Below, one piece after another: positions 1,458 to 20,690 of a stretch of DNA of 45,145 nt. Numbering within the stretch: the first letter of the stretch is position 1; each line of letters begins with the position of its first letter. A model generated the notes under the pieces. That model was given only the letters and a program-made list of their open reading frames with translations, was not told the origin of the DNA and did not search any database. The position numbers were made by a program, and so were the translations under genes. The stretch is taken from positions 1 to 45,145 of the forward strand of contig JAIEPK010000020.1 of assembly GCA_019749875.1 (NCBI GenBank), read 5' to 3'. This DNA comes from Candidatus Binatia bacterium. GTDB taxonomy: Bacteria; Desulfobacterota; Binatia; UBA12015.

Positions 1458-2102
1458 ATGACGCTGCCCAGCTGGAACAACGAGATCAGCTCGCGCGACC
1501 GCATCCTCGATGCGGCCGAGGCCCTGTTCGCGAAGCGGGGCTACGCGGGTGTGGGCCTGCGCGAGGTCGCCGAAGTCGTCGGCCTCGGCAAGTCGTCGCT
1601 GTTCCACCACTTCAAGAACAAGCCGCAGCTCTATGCGGCAGTGTGCGGTCGCATCCTGCGCCGCATCGAAGAGAGTCTGATGCGCACGCTCGCCGCCGGC
1701 GGATCGCCGGTCGAGCGGCTCGAGCGCTGGCTCGACGATCTCGTCAATCTCCTGGCCGACAATCCTTCGTACGCGCGCGTCCTGCTGCGCTCGCTCTTCG
1801 AGGACGACGATCTCGCCGGCGAGATGCCGGAGGAGATGGAGGTCGAGCGCGCGATCGCCAGCATCATGGGAAGTGCAGGGGCGTTGCTCCGTGAAGGGAT
1901 GGGCAGCGGTGCCTTCCGCGCGGCGAACGTTCCGCACATGCTGCTCTCGCTCGTCGGCATCACGGTGTTCCCCTTCGCCTCCGGTGAATTCGGCCAGGAG
2001 ATCCTCGGCAAGGACGTCTTCGACCCCGCCGAGGTGCAGCGTCGCAAGCACGAGCTCAGGGAGTTCATTCGCTTCGGTTTGATCGCACGATCCGAAGCTT
2101 GA
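1458..2102 (+). CDS. TetR/AcrR family transcriptional regulator
   Basis: A 214-residue protein with a TetR N-terminal helix-turn-helix at about residues 12-58: RILDAAEALFAKRGYAGVGL, then REVAEVVGLGKSSLFHHFKN, where the recognition helix reads GKSSLFHHF. The rest is a helical ligand-binding and dimerisation domain of normal length with no family I can name. Such proteins are usually repressors released by a small hydrophobic ligand. The gene faces the SDR at 505-1278, and three palindromes lie between them. The diiron protein gene at 2211 follows 108 bases later in the same direction and may be co-transcribed. ATG 1458 has no strong Shine-Dalgarno. Confidence 0.9.
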   Translation: MTLPSWNNEISSRDRILDAAEALFAKRGYAGVGLREVAEVVGLGKSSLFHHFKNKPQLYAAVCGRILRRIEESLMRTLAAGGSPVERLERWLDDLVNLLADNPSYARVLLRSLFEDDDLAGEMPEEMEVERAIASIMGSAGALLREGMGSGAFRAANVPHMLLSLVGITVFPFASGEFGQEILGKDVFDPAEVQRRKHELREFIRFGLIARSEA

Positions 2103-10693: not shown

Positions 10694-11776
10694 GTGACGA
10701 AGGTCCGCACCGTCGAATGGAGACGCGGTCGAGTGGTGATGCTCGACCAGCGCTTGTTACCCAACCGCGAAGTCTATCGCCTCTACCGCGATTCCGGCGA
10801 CGTCATACGCGCGATCAAAGAGCTCGTGGTGCGCGGTGCACCGGCAATCGGTGTCGCAGCGGCGATGGGCCTGGCGCTCGGCGCGCGAACGATGTCCGCC
10901 GATCGCTTTCCGCGTGAGTTCGAGAAGCTTTGTCGCGCCTTCGCCGCGGCACGCCCCACGGCGGTCAATCTCTTCTGGGCGATCGAGCGCATGCGGCGCG
11001 TCGTGCGCGAGAACGCCCAGCGCCCCGTCGATACGCTGCGGACGCTCCTCGAGCGCGAGGCGCTCACCATTTACGAGGAGGATCTCGACGCCAACCGCCG
11101 TCTCTCCGCGTACGGCGCGGCGCTTCTACCGCGGAAGGGAACGATCCTCACCCACTGCAACGCCGGAGGCCTCGCGACCGCCGGCATCGGCACCGCCCTC
11201 GGCGTCATCGTCGCGGCGCGCGACGCAGGCAAGAAGCTGTCCGTCTTCGCCGATGAAACGAGGCCCGTGCTGCAGGGGGCGCGCCTCACCGCGTGGGAGC
11301 TCCGTCGCGAGCGGATTCCCGTGACCGTGATCACCGACAACATGGCGGGGCACTTCATGCAGCGCGGCAAGATCGACGCCGTGATCGTCGGGACGGATCG
11401 CACCGCTGCGAACGGAGACGTCGCGAACAAGATCGGAACCTATTCGGTGGCCGTGCTCGCCGCACGGCACAAGATTCCTTTCTACGTTGCCGCGCCGACG
11501 AGCTCCATTGATCTCGCATGCAAGAGTGGAGACAAGATTCCGATCGAGGAGCGCTCTCCCGACGAGGTGTCGCACGTCAACGGGAAGATGCTGACCCCGC
11601 GCGGCGTGAAGATCGCGAATCCGGCGTTTGACGTGACACCGCACGAGTTGGTCACGGCGATCATCACGGAGAACGGGGTGGCGCGGGCACCTTATGGGAG
11701 ATCGCTGGCGAGGATGGTGCGGCAGGGGGCGGTCCGCGGCGACGTTCCCGGACGCTTGCGTTCGCGATTTACGTAG
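10694..11776 (+). CDS. mtnA: S-methyl-5-thioribose-1-phosphate isomerase
   Basis: A 360-residue protein of the eIF2B-like isomerase family that converts 5-methylthioribose-1-phosphate to the ribulose form in the methionine salvage cycle. Key marks: VVRGAPAIG at 45-53, catalytic Cys155 in [10 protein letters not shown], and catalytic Asp235 in [20 protein letters not shown]. The segment [13 protein letters not shown] near the end is typical of MtnA and sets it apart from eIF2B subunits and ribose-1,5-bisphosphate isomerase. The GTG start gives the normal N-terminus ([13 protein letters not shown]). No other methionine-salvage gene is nearby. Its last codons overlap the opposite MMPL gene by 8 bases, and base composition changes at this point. 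Confidence 0.93.
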
Positions 11777-14177
11777 GGCCTCCCGCAGAGTGTCGAAATG
11801 GCTCACGAGTATCGCCGCTAGTGTACTCGTCGCCAGCAATAGCTTTTCCAAGGATCGGCTGGATCCAGCGAGTCCTTGCGATCAAGGTGAGCATGGAGGG
11901 GATGGCGATGAGTGTGGCCATACTCGACGAGACCATCGACAATGCGACTAAGAGGCCCAACTGTTCAAATGCTCGAAATCCAGACAAGCATAGTACCGCA
12001 TAGCCTGCGGCAACCGCGGTAGAGACGAACAGAATAGCTTTGCCGGATGTTTCGACAGATCGGATGAGTGCCGCTTCAAAGGTTCGTCCGCGGGCGACTT
12101 CCTCGCGTAGCCTGAATAGAAAATAGACTGCGTAGTCGGCTCCAATACCGACGGCCATCGCCGTGACGATCGCGGTCGTGATGTCGAGTCGAATCCCTAA
12201 AGCACCCATCGCGCCAAAGTTAACTAGAACCGCGACGGTCAGCGGAACCGCGACAAGCAGCCCTCCGAGTAAGCTTCGGAGAACGGCCGCCGAGATAACG
12301 ATCGTGGCCAATGAAATCTGAGCGATGTTCAGTAGCTTTCCGCGGACCACACTATGTGAAAGTGCCGCATTAGATGCGAGGGTGCCCGCGACTCGCATGC
12401 TGAATCCCGGCGGCAATGTCTGGCTGGCGATCATGCGGGCGGCGCCGATCACCTGCTCGCCGTAACTAGTATTGTCCTCATGAAGCATGACTGTGATCTT
12501 TGCGATCCGATAATCAGGTGTCACAAAACTCGTCAGCGCCTCCCCGCTAGATAGGCTGTAAAGAAACAGATACTGAAGAGCGGCTTCTTTGCTTGGTGGG
12601 AGCTCTGAATGTGCGCCACCCTCCGCCAGGGCACCATGAAGGCGCTTAAGTATGTCGAGTACGGAAAAGGCTTTTCCGACACCGTCGATGCCTTCGACGG
12701 CGCGCTCGAGTCTGTCGATAGCCTCCAGCGCGGCGGGCTCTGCAAGCGCTCCCTCGTGGGGGCCTTCGATCAAAAAAAGAAGAGTATTCGTACCTGCGAA
12801 CTTGGAATTTAGCCAATCGTCTCCCGATCTGATTGGATCAGTTTGTGCGAAACTTTGCTTCAAGCTCGTGTCGATCACAAGGTTCCGCGAAAGCAGCACG
12901 GTCATGGCCAACAATATTGCGTACGCCAGGGTGCCGACGAGCGCGCCAGTGCGATTCGCCAGTCGCGTCGCCATTGTCGCCAGGATGTCACTCAGCCAAG
13001 GGGAGGCCTCTGCCTCGGCGGTACGACTCGCGTCTACGGGACGGCCGAGGCACGCGCGCAATGCCGGAATAATCGTAAGCTCAACGGCAAGTGCCGACAC
13101 TATCCCGAAGCCAGTGAAGAGTCCGAATGTCCGGATGGACTCCGTGCCAAGTGTGGCGAGTGAAAAGAAGGACAGTGATGCAATTGTGGCGGCCGCGATC
13201 ATCACCGGTCCCACGTGGGCGAGGGATAGAACTATGGCGTCTTCGTTCGTCGCCGCCGTTGGGAGTTCTTCGTAATAGCGTTTCAGGATCTGTACTGCGT
13301 GGCCGGCGCCGATGGCCAAGATCAACACTGGCGTCGTTGCATTAAATGGATCAAGAGCGACCGAAAGGTGACCCATGAGTCCGAGCGCCCATATCACAGC
13401 GAGAAGGCCAGTTAAGAGTGGAAGTACTACGGCCTGCCATGTCCGAAACGCGTGATAGTGCACAAGTCCTATAACAAAAAGAGCGATAGGGAAAAAATAC
13501 GCAATTCGTGCGGTGTGCGCAGTCATTGCGGCGGATACGGCGACGACCCCTGAAACGGAATAACGAAACGAGCCATCGTCGGCGCTCCGCAAGATGTCCT
13601 CGATAGCCCGATGTAGTTGGACATATCCGGGTAGCTTCGGGCTCAACTCGAATGTGGCGTATATGGCAAGGGCAGAAGCGTCGGGTGAGACGAGAACCCC
13701 AATATTGAACGGGTCATCGAGGACGCGGGTTTTGATCAGCTGAGCCTCGGCTGGCGAAGTCGGTATTCGCGGCATCAGCTGTTCGATCACTACCTCCCCG
13801 TTCTCTTGCCGATGGACATGTTTGGCGCTTGTCGATGAAATGCTGAGCAGCAGCGGCTGCACGGCACCGGGTATAGCCCCCAGTCCTTCTGTGATCTCAG
13901 CAATCTTGGAGAGGCAATGTGGCGAGAATGCATCACCCTCAACGGGCTGTATTCCGACCATCACGAGGTTCTTGTCTCCAAAAAGCCTGTGCGCCTCGTT
14001 GAGTGCAATAATATAAGGGTTGCTCTGAGGAAGCTGCCGGTCAGGATCGACCTCTACGAATAGGCGCCCGATTCCGCTGCCCAACGCTAGAGTTGCTCCA
14101 AGAAGACCGAGAAGCACAAGCGCCCGTTGTCTTATGACAAAGAGTCCGAATCGACCCATGAGGCTCTCGTGTGTCAT
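11769..14177 (-). CDS. MMPL/RND-family exporter
   Basis: An 802-residue membrane protein with the duplicated RND plan: TM1 at about 16-37, a periplasmic loop to about 220 beginning [15 protein letters not shown], a five-helix bundle at about 225-370, TM7 near 408-430, a second loop, and a last helix bundle at about 630-780. The sterol-sensing-like segments [20 protein letters not shown] and [20 protein letters not shown] are repeated counterparts carrying the polar residues used in proton coupling. Members of this branch move lipids or hydrophobic polyketides (hopanoids, aryl polyenes, mycobacterial lipids). It diverges from the dehydratase gene and so is the likely exporter of the locus product. 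AGGATCG precedes the ATG at 14177. Its TAA lies within the last codons of mtnA. Confidence 0.88.
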
Positions 14178-14456
14178 TGGCGATCCTGTCGGTCTGACCT
14201 ATCGCTATGGCGCAACTTTCGTCAAGAGGCGTATCTTCCAAGGAGCGCTCATTGCTAATCCGCGAATTGCCGCCTATGGGAGGCGACGGCCGTCCCGCTA
14301 ACGTCATGGTAGAGATCAGCGAGATCGGGAAACGGGCGAAACGGCGGGGGCCGCGGCGGACTGAAACGTCCAAGGCTGTGCGGTGTAGGAGTGTGGTGCT
14401 GCGGGTTAGACACCCGAAGACTCCGTCTGGGATGGGGGGGCATCTGCGGCCCTGGA

Positions 14457-15686
14457 ATGTGGATGAGCAAGTCGATGGCAACAGAATCACCGAAGCCGCT
14501 CTTCGATGAGGCGGATCTCATGGAGTTCGCAGAGGGGCGCGTTAGTAACGTGCTCGGTGCGCTGTTTGCCCCGGTTGACCTCTATCGGCGACGCGTGCGT
14601 CTTCCCAGCCCCCCATTCATGGCTCTTAGCAGGGTGGTGGAGATTTCCGGGGTGCCCGGAACGATGAAGGACGCGACAATTCGAACTGAGTACGATATCC
14701 CAGGGCACGCATGGAACGCGCTTGATGGACAGGCGTCACAGCTAACGTTGGATCCGCAGGGGGCGCTCGTACTGGCCGCGTGGCTTGGTATTGACTTTGA
14801 AAGCAAGGGGGCGCGCGCGTATCGCTGGGTCGATGCAGATCTCACGTATTGCGATAGATTGCCAAGGGTCGGGGAGCGAATCGACTATGAAATTCACTTT
14901 GGCCAATCGGTTGTCATCGGAGAATCGCGGATCGTTCGCGGCAGATGCCGAGCTTACGTGGAAGGCCGCATAACCGTCGACGCCCCACGTATGACCATTG
15001 GATTCTTCACTGATGAAGCGCTGGAGTTCCCGGTGAACTGGGTGCCACGACGCACTTTACGAGCGCAGTCACTGCAAAACGATCGACCACGAATGTGGCC
15101 CGCACGGGGATCGTTGGAGCGCGTTGACCTGTTAGCGCTCTCCCACGGACACTTAGCCGAGGTCTTCTCGCGGGCTGTTCCTGCCGACGCCCGGAACCCA
15201 TCGCTGCGCCTGCCGTCGGCCATCCTTCAGTTCGTCGACCGAGTGGCCGCGATGTCGACGTCAGGTGGCGTGTGCGGGTTGGGGTCAATTGAAGCGGAGT
15301 GGGTGGTTAACCCGGATCATTGGGCGGTGCGATCGCATTTCAAGGACGACCCAATTGTCGCAGGGCCTTGTATGGTGGAGGGGGCCGTCCAGGCTCTTCA
15401 TATCTATGCCTTGGCGGTTGGTCTCCATCGAGGCGTGTCGGCTGGGCGTTTCGAGCCCGTCGTCAACAGCCGGGTATCCATACGATTTGGGGCGCAGGTA
15501 AGAGCTCGAGGCCAAGTCTTGCGCTATTGTGTGGACATCGTTGATGTCCAGCTGCGCCCCGACCCAAGTCTTGTGGCAGACGTGGAAATTGTTGATGAAG
15601 GTGCTGTCGTCGGCCGGATTGAGGGGCTCGGAGTTCGGATAGTGGCAGAGACTACGAATCGTACGTCTGGGGCACGGAATGAGTGA
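14457..15686 (+). CDS. Stand-alone PfaC-type double-hotdog (FabA-like) dehydratase
   Basis: About 409 residues made of two FabA-like hotdog domains in tandem, the order found in the C-terminal part of PfaC of polyunsaturated fatty acid synthases. The first half shows AEGRVSNVLG, RRRVRLPSPPF, TEYDIP, AWLGIDFESKG and GFFTDEA, all PfaC hallmarks, but the catalytic His and acid positions read Gly and Val, so it is probably a structural pseudo-domain. The second half has NPDHWAVRSHFKDDPIVAG with the catalytic His, and a Glu 14 residues later (FabZ uses Glu there, FabA Asp). It should dehydrate 3-hydroxyacyl-ACP. The start is uncertain: ATGs at 14457, 14463 and 14475 are possible and none has a good Shine-Dalgarno. 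The ketosynthase and ACP follow. Confidence 0.8.
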   Translation: MWMSKSMATESPKPLFDEADLMEFAEGRVSNVLGALFAPVDLYRRRVRLPSPPFMALSRVVEISGVPGTMKDATIRTEYDIPGHAWNALDGQASQLTLDPQGALVLAAWLGIDFESKGARAYRWVDADLTYCDRLPRVGERIDYEIHFGQSVVIGESRIVRGRCRAYVEGRITVDAPRMTIGFFTDEALEFPVNWVPRRTLRAQSLQNDRPRMWPARGSLERVDLLALSHGHLAEVFSRAVPADARNPSLRLPSAILQFVDRVAAMSTSGGVCGLGSIEAEWVVNPDHWAVRSHFKDDPIVAGPCMVEGAVQALHIYALAVGLHRGVSAGRFEPVVNSRVSIRFGAQVRARGQVLRYCVDIVDVQLRPDPSLVADVEIVDEGAVVGRIEGLGVRIVAETTNRTSGARNE

Positions 15687-15725
15687 ATCAGGGCGCTCGT
15701 GCATTTGGCAGGGGAGAGTCAGAGT

Positions 15726-15761
15726 GTCGGAACCAGAGCGCTTAAGCGCTCTGGTTCCGAC
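15726..15761. repeat. 36-bp perfect palindrome between dehydratase and ketosynthase genes
   Basis: The arm GTCGGAACCAGAGCGCTT is followed at once by its exact reverse complement, with the centre at CTTAAG and no loop. It lies 39 bases after the dehydratase stop and 44 bases before the ketosynthase start. As RNA it would form a very stable hairpin (GC-rich arms), but no T-run follows on either strand. It could be an attenuator or internal terminator, a binding site for a dimeric protein, or an mRNA stabiliser. Confidence 0.9.
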
Positions 15762-15805
15762 GGGGGCTTGAGAAGGTGGCGCGAATGGTGTGAGGCGGTG
15801 ACTCG

Positions 15806-17044
15806 ATGGAGCGCATAGTTATCACGGGAATCGGGTGCGTGACTCCGATCGGAATAGGAATAGAGGCATTCTCGAATGCGTTAAGGGGGGGGGTGTCGGG
15901 AATAGGCCCGCTTACGCTGTGTGACCCGACGCCATACGAATGTCGTGTCGCTGCAGAAGTGCGAGATTTTGATCCTACACGATTCTTGGACCTTCGGGAG
16001 GCTAAGGCACTCCCTCGAGTGGCTCAGTTCGCTGTGGCGGCGTCGCGACTCGCGCTGGAGTCGGCCAAGCTTGACAAAGTACCGGACCCGACGCGCACTG
16101 GTATTGTGTTTGGCACGTCGTCGGGGCCGATCGACTATTTGTTCGAGCAGCAAAGTCTCTTCATCGAAAGAGGCGCTCGGAGGATGCACCCCTCCACGCC
16201 AATGTTTGCGCATAATGGAGTGATTGCGTCGGAGGCAGCTATCCAACTCGGTGTTCGCGGGAACGTGTTCACCGTGTCGAGTGCGTGCACGTCGGGAGCG
16301 GATGTAATCGGATTGGGAAGAATGATGATCGCTGGTGGTGGATCGGACGTGATGTTGCTTGGGGCGGCGGATGCTCCGATAACGCCACCACTGTTTGCGG
16401 CGTTCGATCGTTTGGGGATGATGCCAAGGGCGTACAACGATGATCCTGGTGCCGCTTGCCGCCCGTTTGATGTTGCGCGCGAGGGGATGGTGTTGGGCGA
16501 GGGTGCCGTGGTGTTTGTGGTTGAGCGCGAGTTGCATGCGCGCAGGCGCGGGGTTGAGATCCTAGCTGAGATCGCGGGCTATGGAGCTACGTGCGATGCG
16601 TCGTCGCATTTTCGGCAAGAAGCGTCAGGGGAGGATGCGTCGCGGGCGGTGAGGATCGCACTGGATATGGCCGCGATCTCATCCAAGGATCTTGATTATG
16701 TCAGCGCTCATGGAACTGGGACTCGGGAGAATGACCCTTTTGAGACGAGAGTGCTGCGCCGAGTGCTGGAACGGGAGTGTGGGCGAGTCTTGGTCGGTGC
16801 ATCGAAGTCGCAGTTCGGGCATACGCTAGGTGCCTCGGGAGCGCTTGAGGCCGCGGCTGTCATTGCGGGTATGAGGGATGGGTATGCCCCGGCTAACATC
16901 AGTCTGCAAGCAGTGGATCCAGAATGCGATCTGGCCCATGTGGCGCGCGACGTGAGGGTTTGCGAGATGCGCGCGGCGCTATCGACGAACTTTGGGTTCG
17001 GGTCGCGTAACGCCGCTCTTGTGTTTCGAAAGATTGAGAACTGA
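15806..17044 (+). CDS. Beta-ketoacyl-ACP synthase, FabF type
   Basis: A 412-residue condensing enzyme of KAS II length. The Cys-His-His triad is complete: Cys161 in SSACTSG, His302 in SAHGTGT and His339 in KSQFGHTLGASG, with the GFGSRNAA loop near the end. It joins an acyl chain with malonyl-ACP. The substitution of the usual N-D/N-E context after GTGT (RENDPFE) still keeps the family pattern. There is no chain-length-factor partner and no acyltransferase domain, so malonyl-ACP must come from the host's FabD. It lies between the dehydratase and an ACP gene that starts one base after its stop, so KS and ACP are tightly coupled. GGCGGTGA gives a weak ribosome site. Codon use is of the island type. 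Confidence 0.92.
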   Translation: MERIVITGIGCVTPIGIGIEAFSNALRGGVSGIGPLTLCDPTPYECRVAAEVRDFDPTRFLDLREAKALPRVAQFAVAASRLALESAKLDKVPDPTRTGIVFGTSSGPIDYLFEQQSLFIERGARRMHPSTPMFAHNGVIASEAAIQLGVRGNVFTVSSACTSGADVIGLGRMMIAGGGSDVMLLGAADAPITPPLFAAFDRLGMMPRAYNDDPGAACRPFDVAREGMVLGEGAVVFVVERELHARRRGVEILAEIAGYGATCDASSHFRQEASGEDASRAVRIALDMAAISSKDLDYVSAHGTGTRENDPFETRVLRRVLERECGRVLVGASKSQFGHTLGASGALEAAAVIAGMRDGYAPANISLQAVDPECDLAHVARDVRVCEMRAALSTNFGFGSRNAALVFRKIEN

Positions 17045-17045
17045 G

Positions 17046-17303
17046 ATGGGTGAGGGAGCAGATATTGAAGCTGTAGTCGTAAGAGCCTTGTCGGTGGAGC
17101 TTAAGGTGTCTGAGGACGCGATACGGACGATGGCGTCGCTAAAAGATGGATGTCGCATGGATTCCATTTCGGCGGCGAACGTTGCGTTTGCGCTTGAGGA
17201 GGAACTTGGAATTGAGATTGAGATCGAGAAGGGGGACGCGTTTGATTCGCTGGGTGACATTGTTGCACTTGTGACGCGTTGTGTGGCCGGCAAGGCTAAC
17301 TGA
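17046..17303 (+). CDS. Acyl carrier protein
   Basis: An 85-residue acidic helical protein. The phosphopantetheine attachment is Ser40 in RMDSISAANVAFALEEELG, with the usual DS-hydrophobic motif and the following helix II rich in Glu. The length and the last helix (DSLGDIVALVTRC) fit a free-standing type II ACP. It carries the growing chain for the neighbouring ketosynthase and dehydratase. The ATG at 17046 is one base after the ketosynthase stop; a longer in-frame start inside that gene at 16992 is not likely. No phosphopantetheinyl transferase gene was found in the window, so the host enzyme must modify it. Confidence 0.9.
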   Translation: MGEGADIEAVVVRALSVELKVSEDAIRTMASLKDGCRMDSISAANVAFALEEELGIEIEIEKGDAFDSLGDIVALVTRCVAGKAN

Positions 17304-17314
17304 GGACAACGATC

Positions 17315-17965
17315 GTGGTGTCGGCGGCAGCGGGTGTGGTTGACGGCCTGGTTGGGCTCTTGGCGCGACGGGTGCGCGTATGCGGCTTGGCGGAGGCCGA
17401 AGAGGCTTTGGTCGCACTTCGCGAGCAGGAGCGGGGGCGGCGAGTGCTTTACTATCATTGGATAGAGGACGTGCTCCCGCGATTGGTTTTGGCGCGTCGT
17501 GTTGGTTGGCATCTAGGGGCGGATGTCGGGTTTGTTTGCGACGACACCTTCTTCGGTCAGGTCGGAGCAAGAATCGTGACCTCCATGGGGGGGCGTCCGA
17601 TGTTGTTTCGTGCTAGCCAAGGAGTTGTTGGGATCAACGATTTGCGGGCTTTGCTCCGGGAGCCGGCACCGATCAATATTGCCGCGGACGGCCGCGGGCC
17701 GTATGGTCGCGTGCATCCCGGGCTTGTGGGTGTGGTGCGCGGGAGAGGGGCCGTTGCGATTGCTGTGGCGGTCGTGGCTAGACCTTACCTTGGGGCGCTT
17801 GGAACGAAACGCTTCTCAGTGCCATTGCCTGGAAGTGCGCTCGCCATAGGCGTTGATAAGGCGGCTGGTTTGGATGGTCTGGATGACCGGGCAGCAGTTA
17901 GGGCCCTGGAGGCTGGCTTGCGTAATGCGCGCGCGATCGCGTGTCAATTACTTGCTGACGCTTAG
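17315..17965 (+). CDS. DUF374-like lysophospholipid acyltransferase family protein
   Basis: A 216-residue protein. The segment INDLRALLREPAPINIAADG continuing RGPYGRVHPG and ending in AIAVAVVARP and SVPLP matches the C-terminal half of DUF374 proteins (LPLAT superfamily, pattern ..DG.RGP...V.PG....AR..G..I.PVAV). An early HWIED with His48 may be the counterpart of the catalytic His in the FWHG segment of that family, and DDTFFGQVGARI follows. It would transfer the finished acyl chain to a lipid or sugar acceptor, as the LPLAT proteins of aryl-polyene loci are thought to do. The GTG at 17315 has TGAGGA 8 bases before it and lies 11 bases after the ACP stop. The family call is from motif reading and moderately sure. 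Confidence 0.65.
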   Translation: MVSAAAGVVDGLVGLLARRVRVCGLAEAEEALVALREQERGRRVLYYHWIEDVLPRLVLARRVGWHLGADVGFVCDDTFFGQVGARIVTSMGGRPMLFRASQGVVGINDLRALLREPAPINIAADGRGPYGRVHPGLVGVVRGRGAVAIAVAVVARPYLGALGTKRFSVPLPGSALAIGVDKAAGLDGLDDRAAVRALEAGLRNARAIACQLLADA

Positions 17966-18043
17966 GTCGCTTGCGGGAGAGTCATGACTCGGGGGCACGT
18001 ACATAGCGCCCTGCGCGGCGCGGGGCCGGAGATAGCCCGAAGG

Positions 18044-18073
18044 CTTTGGTGTTGCGAGCTTTGGTGTTGCGAG
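18044..18073 (+). repeat. Tandem duplication of a 15-bp unit
   Basis: CTTTGGTGTTGCGAG occurs twice in direct succession without any spacer, 79 bases after the acyltransferase stop. It suggests slippage or a duplication in non-coding DNA. Confidence 0.85.
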
Positions 18074-19205
18074 TCGATGGGCACCGCATCGGCCATCGTT
18101 GGCGGCGGTACTTGCCGCACCTCATCGCGGTCGCTGGCGGCAGTTCCCGCATCGAGGCGAAGTCACGGGCCGACGCGACGGCATGGGCGCACGGTCCGTT
18201 GGTCTCGGCGCTGTGGTGCTTGGCCCGCCGAGGTGGTGTACTGTTTTGGTGCAGACGACCATCTCTTCTGCGCGCTTTCGTTTCCCATGGTGGAGCGAAA
18301 AGCGCGGACGCGGCGTGGCCCGTCCCTCGATCAGCGATCGGCGGTTCATCGAGTGCAGTGCTGCGTTTGGCTCTACACCGCGCACCTTTGCTGTGGCGCT
18401 GAAGGCGATGGGGGCTTGGTCCGAGTGGCCTGTTGGCGGGCGCGAATGAAGTCCCCCAGGCTGGAGCCGACCACGTGGGCTTATCGCGCGCGCCCGTCCC
18501 GCACCGGCTTCGGCAGCCGGCAGCGGTATATCGGCCCATGGCCCATTGCAGCTCTTCGTTGTTCATCAGTGCCCCACGTACTGGAGCCGCGCTGCCTGGC
18601 CCAGCGCCTTCTTGATCACTGGGCCGGGGCAGATCCGTCAGCGACTGGTGCTTGCCCGGTGGAGCGCCGCTCTCGGCGGGCGCCCGCCACCGGGGCTGCT
18701 CGGGTGGTGGTGCCTCCGTCCATCTTAGCTATTCAACTGGAAGTTGTGGCGGAGGCTCGCGCATCATCGGCGATCCGTTTGATCGCCAAGGGCTCGGTCG
18801 CGATCTGCGCGCCTTATTCAGGTCCGGGAAGTGTCCCTCTAGGGGGAGAGTCGCTCGACCCGACGCTCGAACAACTGATGGGGACTTGCGAAGGAGGCGA
18901 GCGTGGCCCCCTCGCTGCTCATGTCGAGAAAGAAGCCAAACCGGACCTTATCCTCAAGGAGCTCGGGCATTTTGCGCTCCGTGGCGCACAGTGTACACGC
19001 GACCGGAAGCCGGCACTTAGAGGGGCGCTGGGGCAGAACGAGCTAGCGGCCTCGGTCCTACTGCGTCCGGTCGAAGACTCGCGAAAGCTGCTCTGGCCAA
19101 ACATCCGTGATCGCGTTGTCCAGGAGGAGCCGCTCGGCGAGCGCCATGGCGGTCTCCATCTCCGCTGATGACCCATCGCGCCGCGCATCGCGATCGCGGG
19201 CAGCG

Positions 19206-19238
19206 TTGACCAGGGGATGTCAATTGCGACATGTCGCA
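19206..19238. promoter_or_regulatory. Inverted repeats upstream of the sensor kinase
   Basis: TTGAC-N8-GTCAA (19206-19223) is directly followed by the perfect 14-bp palindrome TGCGACATGTCGCA (19225-19238). They lie 67-99 bases before the kinase ATG. Two adjacent symmetric sites suggest binding of a dimeric regulator; which one is unknown. Confidence 0.45.
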
Positions 19239-19304
19239 TTAGTCATAAACCGAGCTACGGTCCGTAACAGCGATAGCGTGTTATCGGCCTTTTAGGCAAC
19301 GCAG

Positions 19305-20690
19305 ATGGAGTGCACGCGAGCCGGCGACGCCATTCGTGAAGCAGTCGATCGTCGACGGGAGTTCGTTCAGGGGCTTGGCGTACGAGCGGGAATCACGCTC
19401 GCGCTCGGGTTTGGTGTAGTAGGATTCTGGGCTCTCGGTACTATTCCCTCTTATAATACGCTCGCACTGGCCGTAATCTTAGGCCTATGGGCCAGTGTGA
19501 ATGTTGTGTATTGGAAGATTGGTGCGATGCGGGGGTTTCCAACGCGAGACTTCGCTGTGCACCAGATATGTGATGTTGTTATTAGCACGGTAGCAATTCA
19601 TTATGCTGGCGGAGTTAGTATGCCGTATTGCGCAATGGCATACTCGCCCCCAGTCCTATTTGCGGCGCTCAACGATTCGCGGCGGGTGGCGCTACTATTG
19701 GGGGGGGTGTCGATCGCAAGCCTGACGTGTCTCGTTATGCTTGAGCAAGGAGGGGGCGTTCCTTCGTTCGGTATGATTTGGGGCTACGTGCTCCCCGGGC
19801 AGGTTCAAGTGGTCGTATTGGTTGTGGGGGCGGTTTATCTTTTGACGCTAGCATGGGTCGCGGGGACATTGGGGGATGAGCTAAAACTCGCAAATGTCCA
19901 TCTCGAGGATGCGGGCTTGCGACTTCAGGCTCAGAACCGCGACCTTGAGCGTCGCGTTGGCGAGCGTACGGCAAAGTTGGCCCGCGCAACGCAAGAGATC
20001 GAGGATCTCGTCCACATCGTCTCGCATGACCTCAAGAACGTCGCGGTTGCCGTCACCGAGACCGCGCGTAAGCTCGTCGCGCGCGAGAGCGGAAACCTTT
20101 CGGAGCGAGGTCGATCGTACGCCGACAACGTGCTCGAGGACGGCCGTACGATGTCGCGAATGCTGGAGGACTTGCTCTTGTTGTTCCGGCACACGGAGGG
20201 TGCCGGTGCGCGCGCCGAGTGGGTGGACGTCGATGCTGTCGTCAGGCAGTCGCTCAGGCAGCTCCAGTACCAGGTCGAGGCGAAGCGCATCGAGGTGTCG
20301 GTGGGGCCGTTGCCGTCGGTCTTTGCGGACACGCAGAAGATGCGCCATATCTTCGACAACCTGCTGAACAATGCCTGCAAGTACGTGGGAGACAAGAAGC
20401 CCGCGAGGATCGAAGTCGGTGGGGAGGCGAACGGAACGACGGTGAAGTTCTTCGTCCGGGACAACGGCGTCGGTATGGACGAGCGCCAGCGGGCGAGGAT
20501 TTTCCAGCTGTATCATCGTGGGCCGGCTCAGGAGGTGGAGGGGGCGGTGCAGGAGGGACACGGCGTTGGCCTGGCGATCGTCAAGCGCATCGTGGAGCGC
20601 TACGGTGGCACGATCGGTGTCAAGAGCGCGGCTCGCGAGGGGACGACCTTCGAGGTCACTCTGCCGCGTGGTGACGGTACGGTTGCGTGA
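19305..20690 (+). CDS. Membrane sensor histidine kinase
   Basis: A 461-residue kinase. Residues 25-190 form about six hydrophobic helices (for example ITLALGFGVVGFWALG and VQVVVLVVGAVYLLTLAWVA), an integral membrane sensor with no large extracytoplasmic domain. A coiled coil at about 195-235 leads to the phospho-acceptor His241 in HIVSHDLKN, the N box NLLNNACKY, the G1 box DNGVGM and the G2 box GHGVGLAIV, so catalysis should be intact. The first ~200 codons have the low-GC style of the island and the rest the GC-rich backbone style, as if the sensor half was exchanged. Its GTGA overlap with the next gene couples it to a receiver-kinase protein. The ATG at 19305 has only a weak ribosome site. 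Confidence 0.9.
   Translation: MECTRAGDAIREAVDRRREFVQGLGVRAGITLALGFGVVGFWALGTIPSYNTLALAVILGLWASVNVVYWKIGAMRGFPTRDFAVHQICDVVISTVAIHYAGGVSMPYCAMAYSPPVLFAALNDSRRVALLLGGVSIASLTCLVMLEQGGGVPSFGMIWGYVLPGQVQVVVLVVGAVYLLTLAWVAGTLGDELKLANVHLEDAGLRLQAQNRDLERRVGERTAKLARATQEIEDLVHIVSHDLKNVAVAVTETARKLVARESGNLSERGRSYADNVLEDGRTMSRMLEDLLLLFRHTEGAGARAEWVDVDAVVRQSLRQLQYQVEAKRIEVSVGPLPSVFADTQKMRHIFDNLLNNACKYVGDKKPARIEVGGEANGTTVKFFVRDNGVGMDERQRARIFQLYHRGPAQEVEGAVQEGHGVGLAIVKRIVERYGGTIGVKSAAREGTTFEVTLPRGDGTVA

Follow-up and report, generated by a model that had tools for sequence, protein, structure and literature searches.

In the genome of a Candidatus Binatia bacterium, a perfect 36-bp palindrome at positions 15726–15761 of the window, the whole 45,145-nucleotide stretch of DNA that was analyzed, is likely to encode the 3'-end hairpin of the transcript of the preceding dehydratase gene, either as an I-shaped terminator lacking a U-tract or as an exonuclease barrier after Rho termination. 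In place, energy and tail, it matches a class of 3'-end hairpins in the same genome. The palindrome is a real, non-random element that probably functions as RNA and is of a known and ordinary kind; that RNA polymerase transcribes this copy and that a 3' end forms there is our inference.

Sequence, position and folding of the palindrome

The palindrome, GTCGGAACCAGAGCGCTTAAGCGCTCTGGTTCCGAC, assigned to neither strand, occupies exactly positions 15726–15761, is centered on CTTAAG, and shows Watson–Crick complementarity at 18 of 18 arm positions, without G–U pairs. It lies in the 119-nt gap between the dehydratase and ketosynthase genes, 39 nt past the dehydratase stop codon (15684–15686) and 44 nt ahead of the ketosynthase ATG (15806). 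No T-run follows it 3' on either strand, the tails being GGGGGCTTGAGA and ACTCTGACTCTC. These observations bear out the sequence-only reading, which had described a perfect palindrome with 18-base arms and this center, free of a T-run, between the dehydratase and the ketosynthase–acyl carrier protein (ACP) pair. A canonical intrinsic terminator was rejected, as no U-tract directly follows the stem.

The same reading had called the palindrome loopless, a description that applies to its DNA form only. In RNA, the sequence forms a 16-bp stem capped by a UUAA tetraloop (−32.4 kcal/mol), and the 151-nt region around it folds more stably than all 200 shuffled versions (z = −4.5). A search of the whole window with Rfam covariance models at gathering thresholds returned no match, indicating that the palindrome is not a known structured RNA.

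A class of gene-end hairpins in the genome

Hairpins were surveyed in a 1.82-Mb sample of the same genome (7.78 Mb, 680 contigs), listing perfect stems with loops of 0–10, and arms of at least 12 for class densities. Genes were called by a simple codon-usage score trained on the sample, with the low-GC genes of the window added by hand, and the class statistics rest on these calls. Across the 1.82 Mb, intergenic DNA contains 23.0 perfect hairpins with arms of at least 12 per 100 kb, versus 2.5 per 100 kb for coding DNA (binomial p = 2e-22). Their density per 100 kb is 50.0 in convergent gaps, 25.7 and 26.9 in co-directional gaps, and 4.9 in divergent gaps, which hold 3 of the 48 intergenic hairpins (p = 2e-4). 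Since divergent gaps contain no gene 3' ends, this descending order from convergent through co-directional to divergent is what 3'-end elements give. Within co-directional gaps, the hairpins cluster by the upstream stop codon, at a median relative position of 0.16 (KS test against a uniform distribution, p = 2e-4). Hairpins were too few in the relatives G001, G003 and G006 to show the enrichment there.

Membership of the class requires a perfect stem (12 bp or longer), a loop of at most 10 and a location in a gap after a stop codon, all of which the palindrome displays; hairpins of this kind were, as expected, more frequent at gene ends than in coding DNA or in divergent gaps. Its distance of 39 nt from the stop codon falls inside the range of the co-directional class, and its energy is likewise within the class range, 12 of 45 class hairpins being more stable. 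Fewer than three T residues occur in the next 8 nt after 30 of 45 class hairpins, as after the palindrome, and at least five after 3 of 45. The sole unusual trait of the palindrome within this class is its exact self-complementarity: a loop of 0 is found in only 2 of the 48 intergenic hairpins of the sample, the palindrome included, and this rarity counts against the 3'-end reading.

Chance occurrence had been described as negligible. Base composition predicts 4e-6 perfect palindromes whose arms reach 18 or more in the window and approximately 1e-3 in the 7.78-Mb genome, so the statement stands against random sequence; that null is the wrong one, however, for a genome rich in intergenic hairpins. 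Perfect hairpins with arms of at least 17 and loops of 0–10 number about 6 in the 1.82 Mb, or about 0.15 per window-sized stretch, and the palindrome is the sole loopless perfect palindrome there with arms longer than 15. The longest perfect hairpin in the sample, with 21-nt arms and a 3-nt loop, lies at positions 10962–11006 of locus L087; it is coding by the simple gene model and may be a miscalled intergenic site.

Evidence for action at the RNA level

An element functioning as RNA should tolerate G–U pairs on the transcribed strand and not A–C mismatches. Among near-perfect 3' stems in co-directional gaps, G–U exceeded A–C on the transcribed strand in 8 of 8 settings (for example, 18:10, 12:2 and 23:7), the last of these counts coming from 14-bp stems (23 versus 7, p = 0.005); the eight settings overlap, and their p values range from 0.005 to 0.18, uncorrected. 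In divergent gaps, G–U and A–C were about equal. This pattern suggests that selection on the hairpin class acts at the RNA level, which is moderate support for the class and not proof for this copy.

Proposed role and comparison with known systems

In the proposed mechanism, RNA polymerase would pass the dehydratase stop codon and, 39 nt further on, the nascent RNA would fold into the 16-bp stem capped by UUAA. By one route, the hairpin would help to end transcription without a U-tract, as an I-shaped terminator. By the other, Rho would end transcription downstream, and the hairpin would halt 3'-to-5' exonucleases and thereby fix the mature 3' end; Rho is encoded in the genome (713.9 bits). 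By either route, the dehydratase message would be partly or fully separated from the ketosynthase–ACP message. No promoter was recognized between the hairpin and the ketosynthase gene or within the palindrome. With only 44 nt to the ketosynthase ATG, transcription that always ended at the hairpin would require a ketosynthase promoter in or overlapping the palindrome. Whether U-less hairpins terminate transcription by themselves is reportedly disputed (Czyz et al. 2014).

Comparable elements have been described in other bacteria. In Streptomyces clavuligerus, structured 3' ends without U outnumber U-rich ones, 353 to 182 (PMC8269248). These ends, termed HS-U-lack TEPs, share with the present case a GC-rich genome, a strong stem-loop and fewer than three U residues in the next 8 nt, but they were defined by 3'-end mapping (PMC8269248), whereas the class described here was recognized in DNA sequence. 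Mycobacterial I-shaped terminators are hairpins that lie no more than 50 bp from the stop codon and carry no U trail (PMC12288462); the palindrome resembles them in its hairpin about 50 bp or less from the stop (39 nt) and in a tail without a U trail (GGGGGCTT), although termination here is only predicted. The requirement for a U-tract is disputed in literature cited by the same source (PMC12288462), and Gupta and Pal reported poly-U to be unnecessary at hairpin-associated ends in 13 genomes (PMC8355165). In E. coli, 3' hairpins protect Rho-dependent transcripts from exonucleases, and the same protection has been invoked for S. clavuligerus (PMC8269248). A stable stem-loop 5' of the final 3' end is common to the E. 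coli transcripts and the present locus, and Rho is encoded in this genome too, while trimming is a proposal here.

Copy number and conservation

A search of the whole genome with a 22-nt core, allowing up to 3 mismatches, found one copy and no second site, and BLAST of the intergenic gap against its own genome returned only the self-match. REP and BIME palindromes also lie between genes, after a gene, but they are multi-copy; a REP-like repeat, which the sequence-only reading would have read from many scattered copies, was therefore rejected for this single-copy element. A 28-nt core was absent from 57 relatives at up to 3 mismatches, and in ten relatives the gap 5' of the ketosynthase orthologues contained no comparable perfect palindrome. 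The only same-genus genome, G001, provides approximately 190 nt 5' of ketosynthase before the contig ends (L040 1–193), without such a palindrome; the contig end hides the gene that precedes ketosynthase there. Absence from relatives had been named in advance as the sign that the palindrome is incidental, and a conserved locus-specific signal was rejected accordingly. The palindrome still fits the hairpin class, which is set by structure and position and not by sequence.

An origin in a mobile element or phage was also rejected: the exact core was absent from the viral and genome collections searched, from which near-identical genomes may be missing, and the gap had no meaningful plasmid or phage match. 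The one hit, a 36-bp match to a Sphingopyxis plasmid (E = 0.1), was taken as chance.

Genes flanking the palindrome

The gene upstream of the palindrome encodes a FabA-like dehydratase-domain protein (14457–15686, forward strand; Pfam PF07977, E = 8e-25); its start codon at 14457 is a guess, the reading frame being open from 14391. Downstream are the beta-ketoacyl synthase (15806–17044, forward strand; Pfam PF00109/PF02801), with orthologues at 54–60% identity, and the syntenic ACP (17046–17303, forward strand; Pfam PF00550, E = 3.5e-6). A 216-aa protein (17315–17965) without a Pfam match is syntenic 3' of the ACP across the family; it carries a DGRGP-like motif, which on visual inspection hints at a lysophospholipid-acyltransferase-like enzyme. 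In the family, f1, the order of IF-2B-family gene, ketosynthase, ACP, 216-aa protein and histidine kinase is widely kept. The spacing between the last two is about 50 bp in genome G003 and about 220 bp in G001; in the window, approximately 1.3 kb without a recognizable gene (17966–19304) separates them, its open reading frames having no Pfam match.

The interval between the IF-2B-family gene and ketosynthase is more variable, spanning approximately 165–330 nt in some f1 members and holding approximately 1.4–1.7 kb of other sequence in others; in G003, it is occupied by an opposite-strand gene that appears NagZ-like on inspection of its sequence. In the window, an MMPL-family transporter gene (11769–14177, reverse strand) lies between the IF-2B-family gene and the dehydratase gene. 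Among the genomes seen, only that of the window has MMPL and dehydratase genes at this position; the MMPL homologues closest to it in the family occupy other loci, on other contigs, and none of the 57 relatives has a close homologue of the dehydratase, for which the best match reaches 34% over a part. The dehydratase is thus a lineage-specific neighbor of ketosynthase–ACP, and separate transcription of dehydratase and ketosynthase is plausible. The GC content of the 11.8–20 kb stretch (11769–20000) is mostly 56–62%, versus 69.5% in the genome sample, and the genome's codon-usage model largely misses its genes, even though synteny in the family extends to ketosynthase, ACP and kinase.

Alternative explanations

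The sequence-only reading had suggested attenuation or processing that regulates ketosynthase and ACP levels, a target for a dimeric regulator, or the mark of a past insertion. Among these, a 3'-end or processing role is best supported, as class hairpins concentrate after stop codons and shun divergent gaps. It is unlikely that the hairpin is instead internal to an operon and, without terminating transcription, tunes ketosynthase–ACP against dehydratase through partial read-through, RNase III cleavage or differential decay of the message halves. The genes are co-directional, the gap is just 119 nt long with no recognizable promoter between hairpin and ketosynthase, and a 16-bp stem could serve as a substrate for double-strand RNases, all of which would suit such an arrangement. 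However, relatives possess ketosynthase–ACP without a dehydratase at that position, which argues against an ancestral operon, and they have no comparable palindrome 5' of ketosynthase.

The origin of the arms is a separate question. Template switching during replication creates and perfects hairpins and can yield perfect stems in one event (PMC8794818). Pairing here is perfect, without G–U, in a region of lowered GC content, at a locus that varies in the family between the IF-2B-family gene and ketosynthase. That the palindrome is merely a neutral product of such switching, or a scar left when the MMPL and dehydratase genes arrived here, is nevertheless rather improbable: this account leaves unexplained the near-stop placement common to the genome's other hairpins, and visual inspection showed no flanking duplication. 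The earlier suggestion of a past insertion holds insofar as relatives lack the two genes at this position, but no observation makes the palindrome the cause of that event. Perfection of the arms by template switching may account for origin and not function, and would be compatible with a role as a 3'-end hairpin.

Perfect dyad symmetry, together with a TetR-family gene in the window (1458–2102, about 14 kb from the palindrome), would suit a DNA operator bound by a dimeric regulator, but we regard this reading as very unlikely. An operator would be recognized by further genomic sites or by promoter conservation in relatives; no second site was found for the 22-bp core at up to 3 mismatches, the vicinity of the TetR gene included, and the palindrome is absent from the 57 relatives. 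It also exceeds the usual length of operators and resembles a hairpin class tied to gene ends, not starts. Highly improbable, too, is a function of the exact self-complementarity at the level of DNA or an RNA dimer, for example, as a cruciform, or as a lineage-specific site through which a regulator sets ketosynthase–ACP dosage against a newly arrived dehydratase. A fold-back join produced by a fragmented draft assembly is scarcely credible: the genome is in 680 contigs, but the palindrome lies inside a 45-kb contig, between intact genes, and its two flanks are unrelated.

Implications

If the 3'-end reading holds, the dehydratase and ketosynthase–ACP messages would be separate or separately stabilized. 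Judging by the survey, long hairpins, most of them U-less, mark the ends of genes throughout this GC-rich genome, in line with reports from Streptomyces and mycobacteria, and the pattern could aid the annotation of transcription units in genomes for which no expression data exist.
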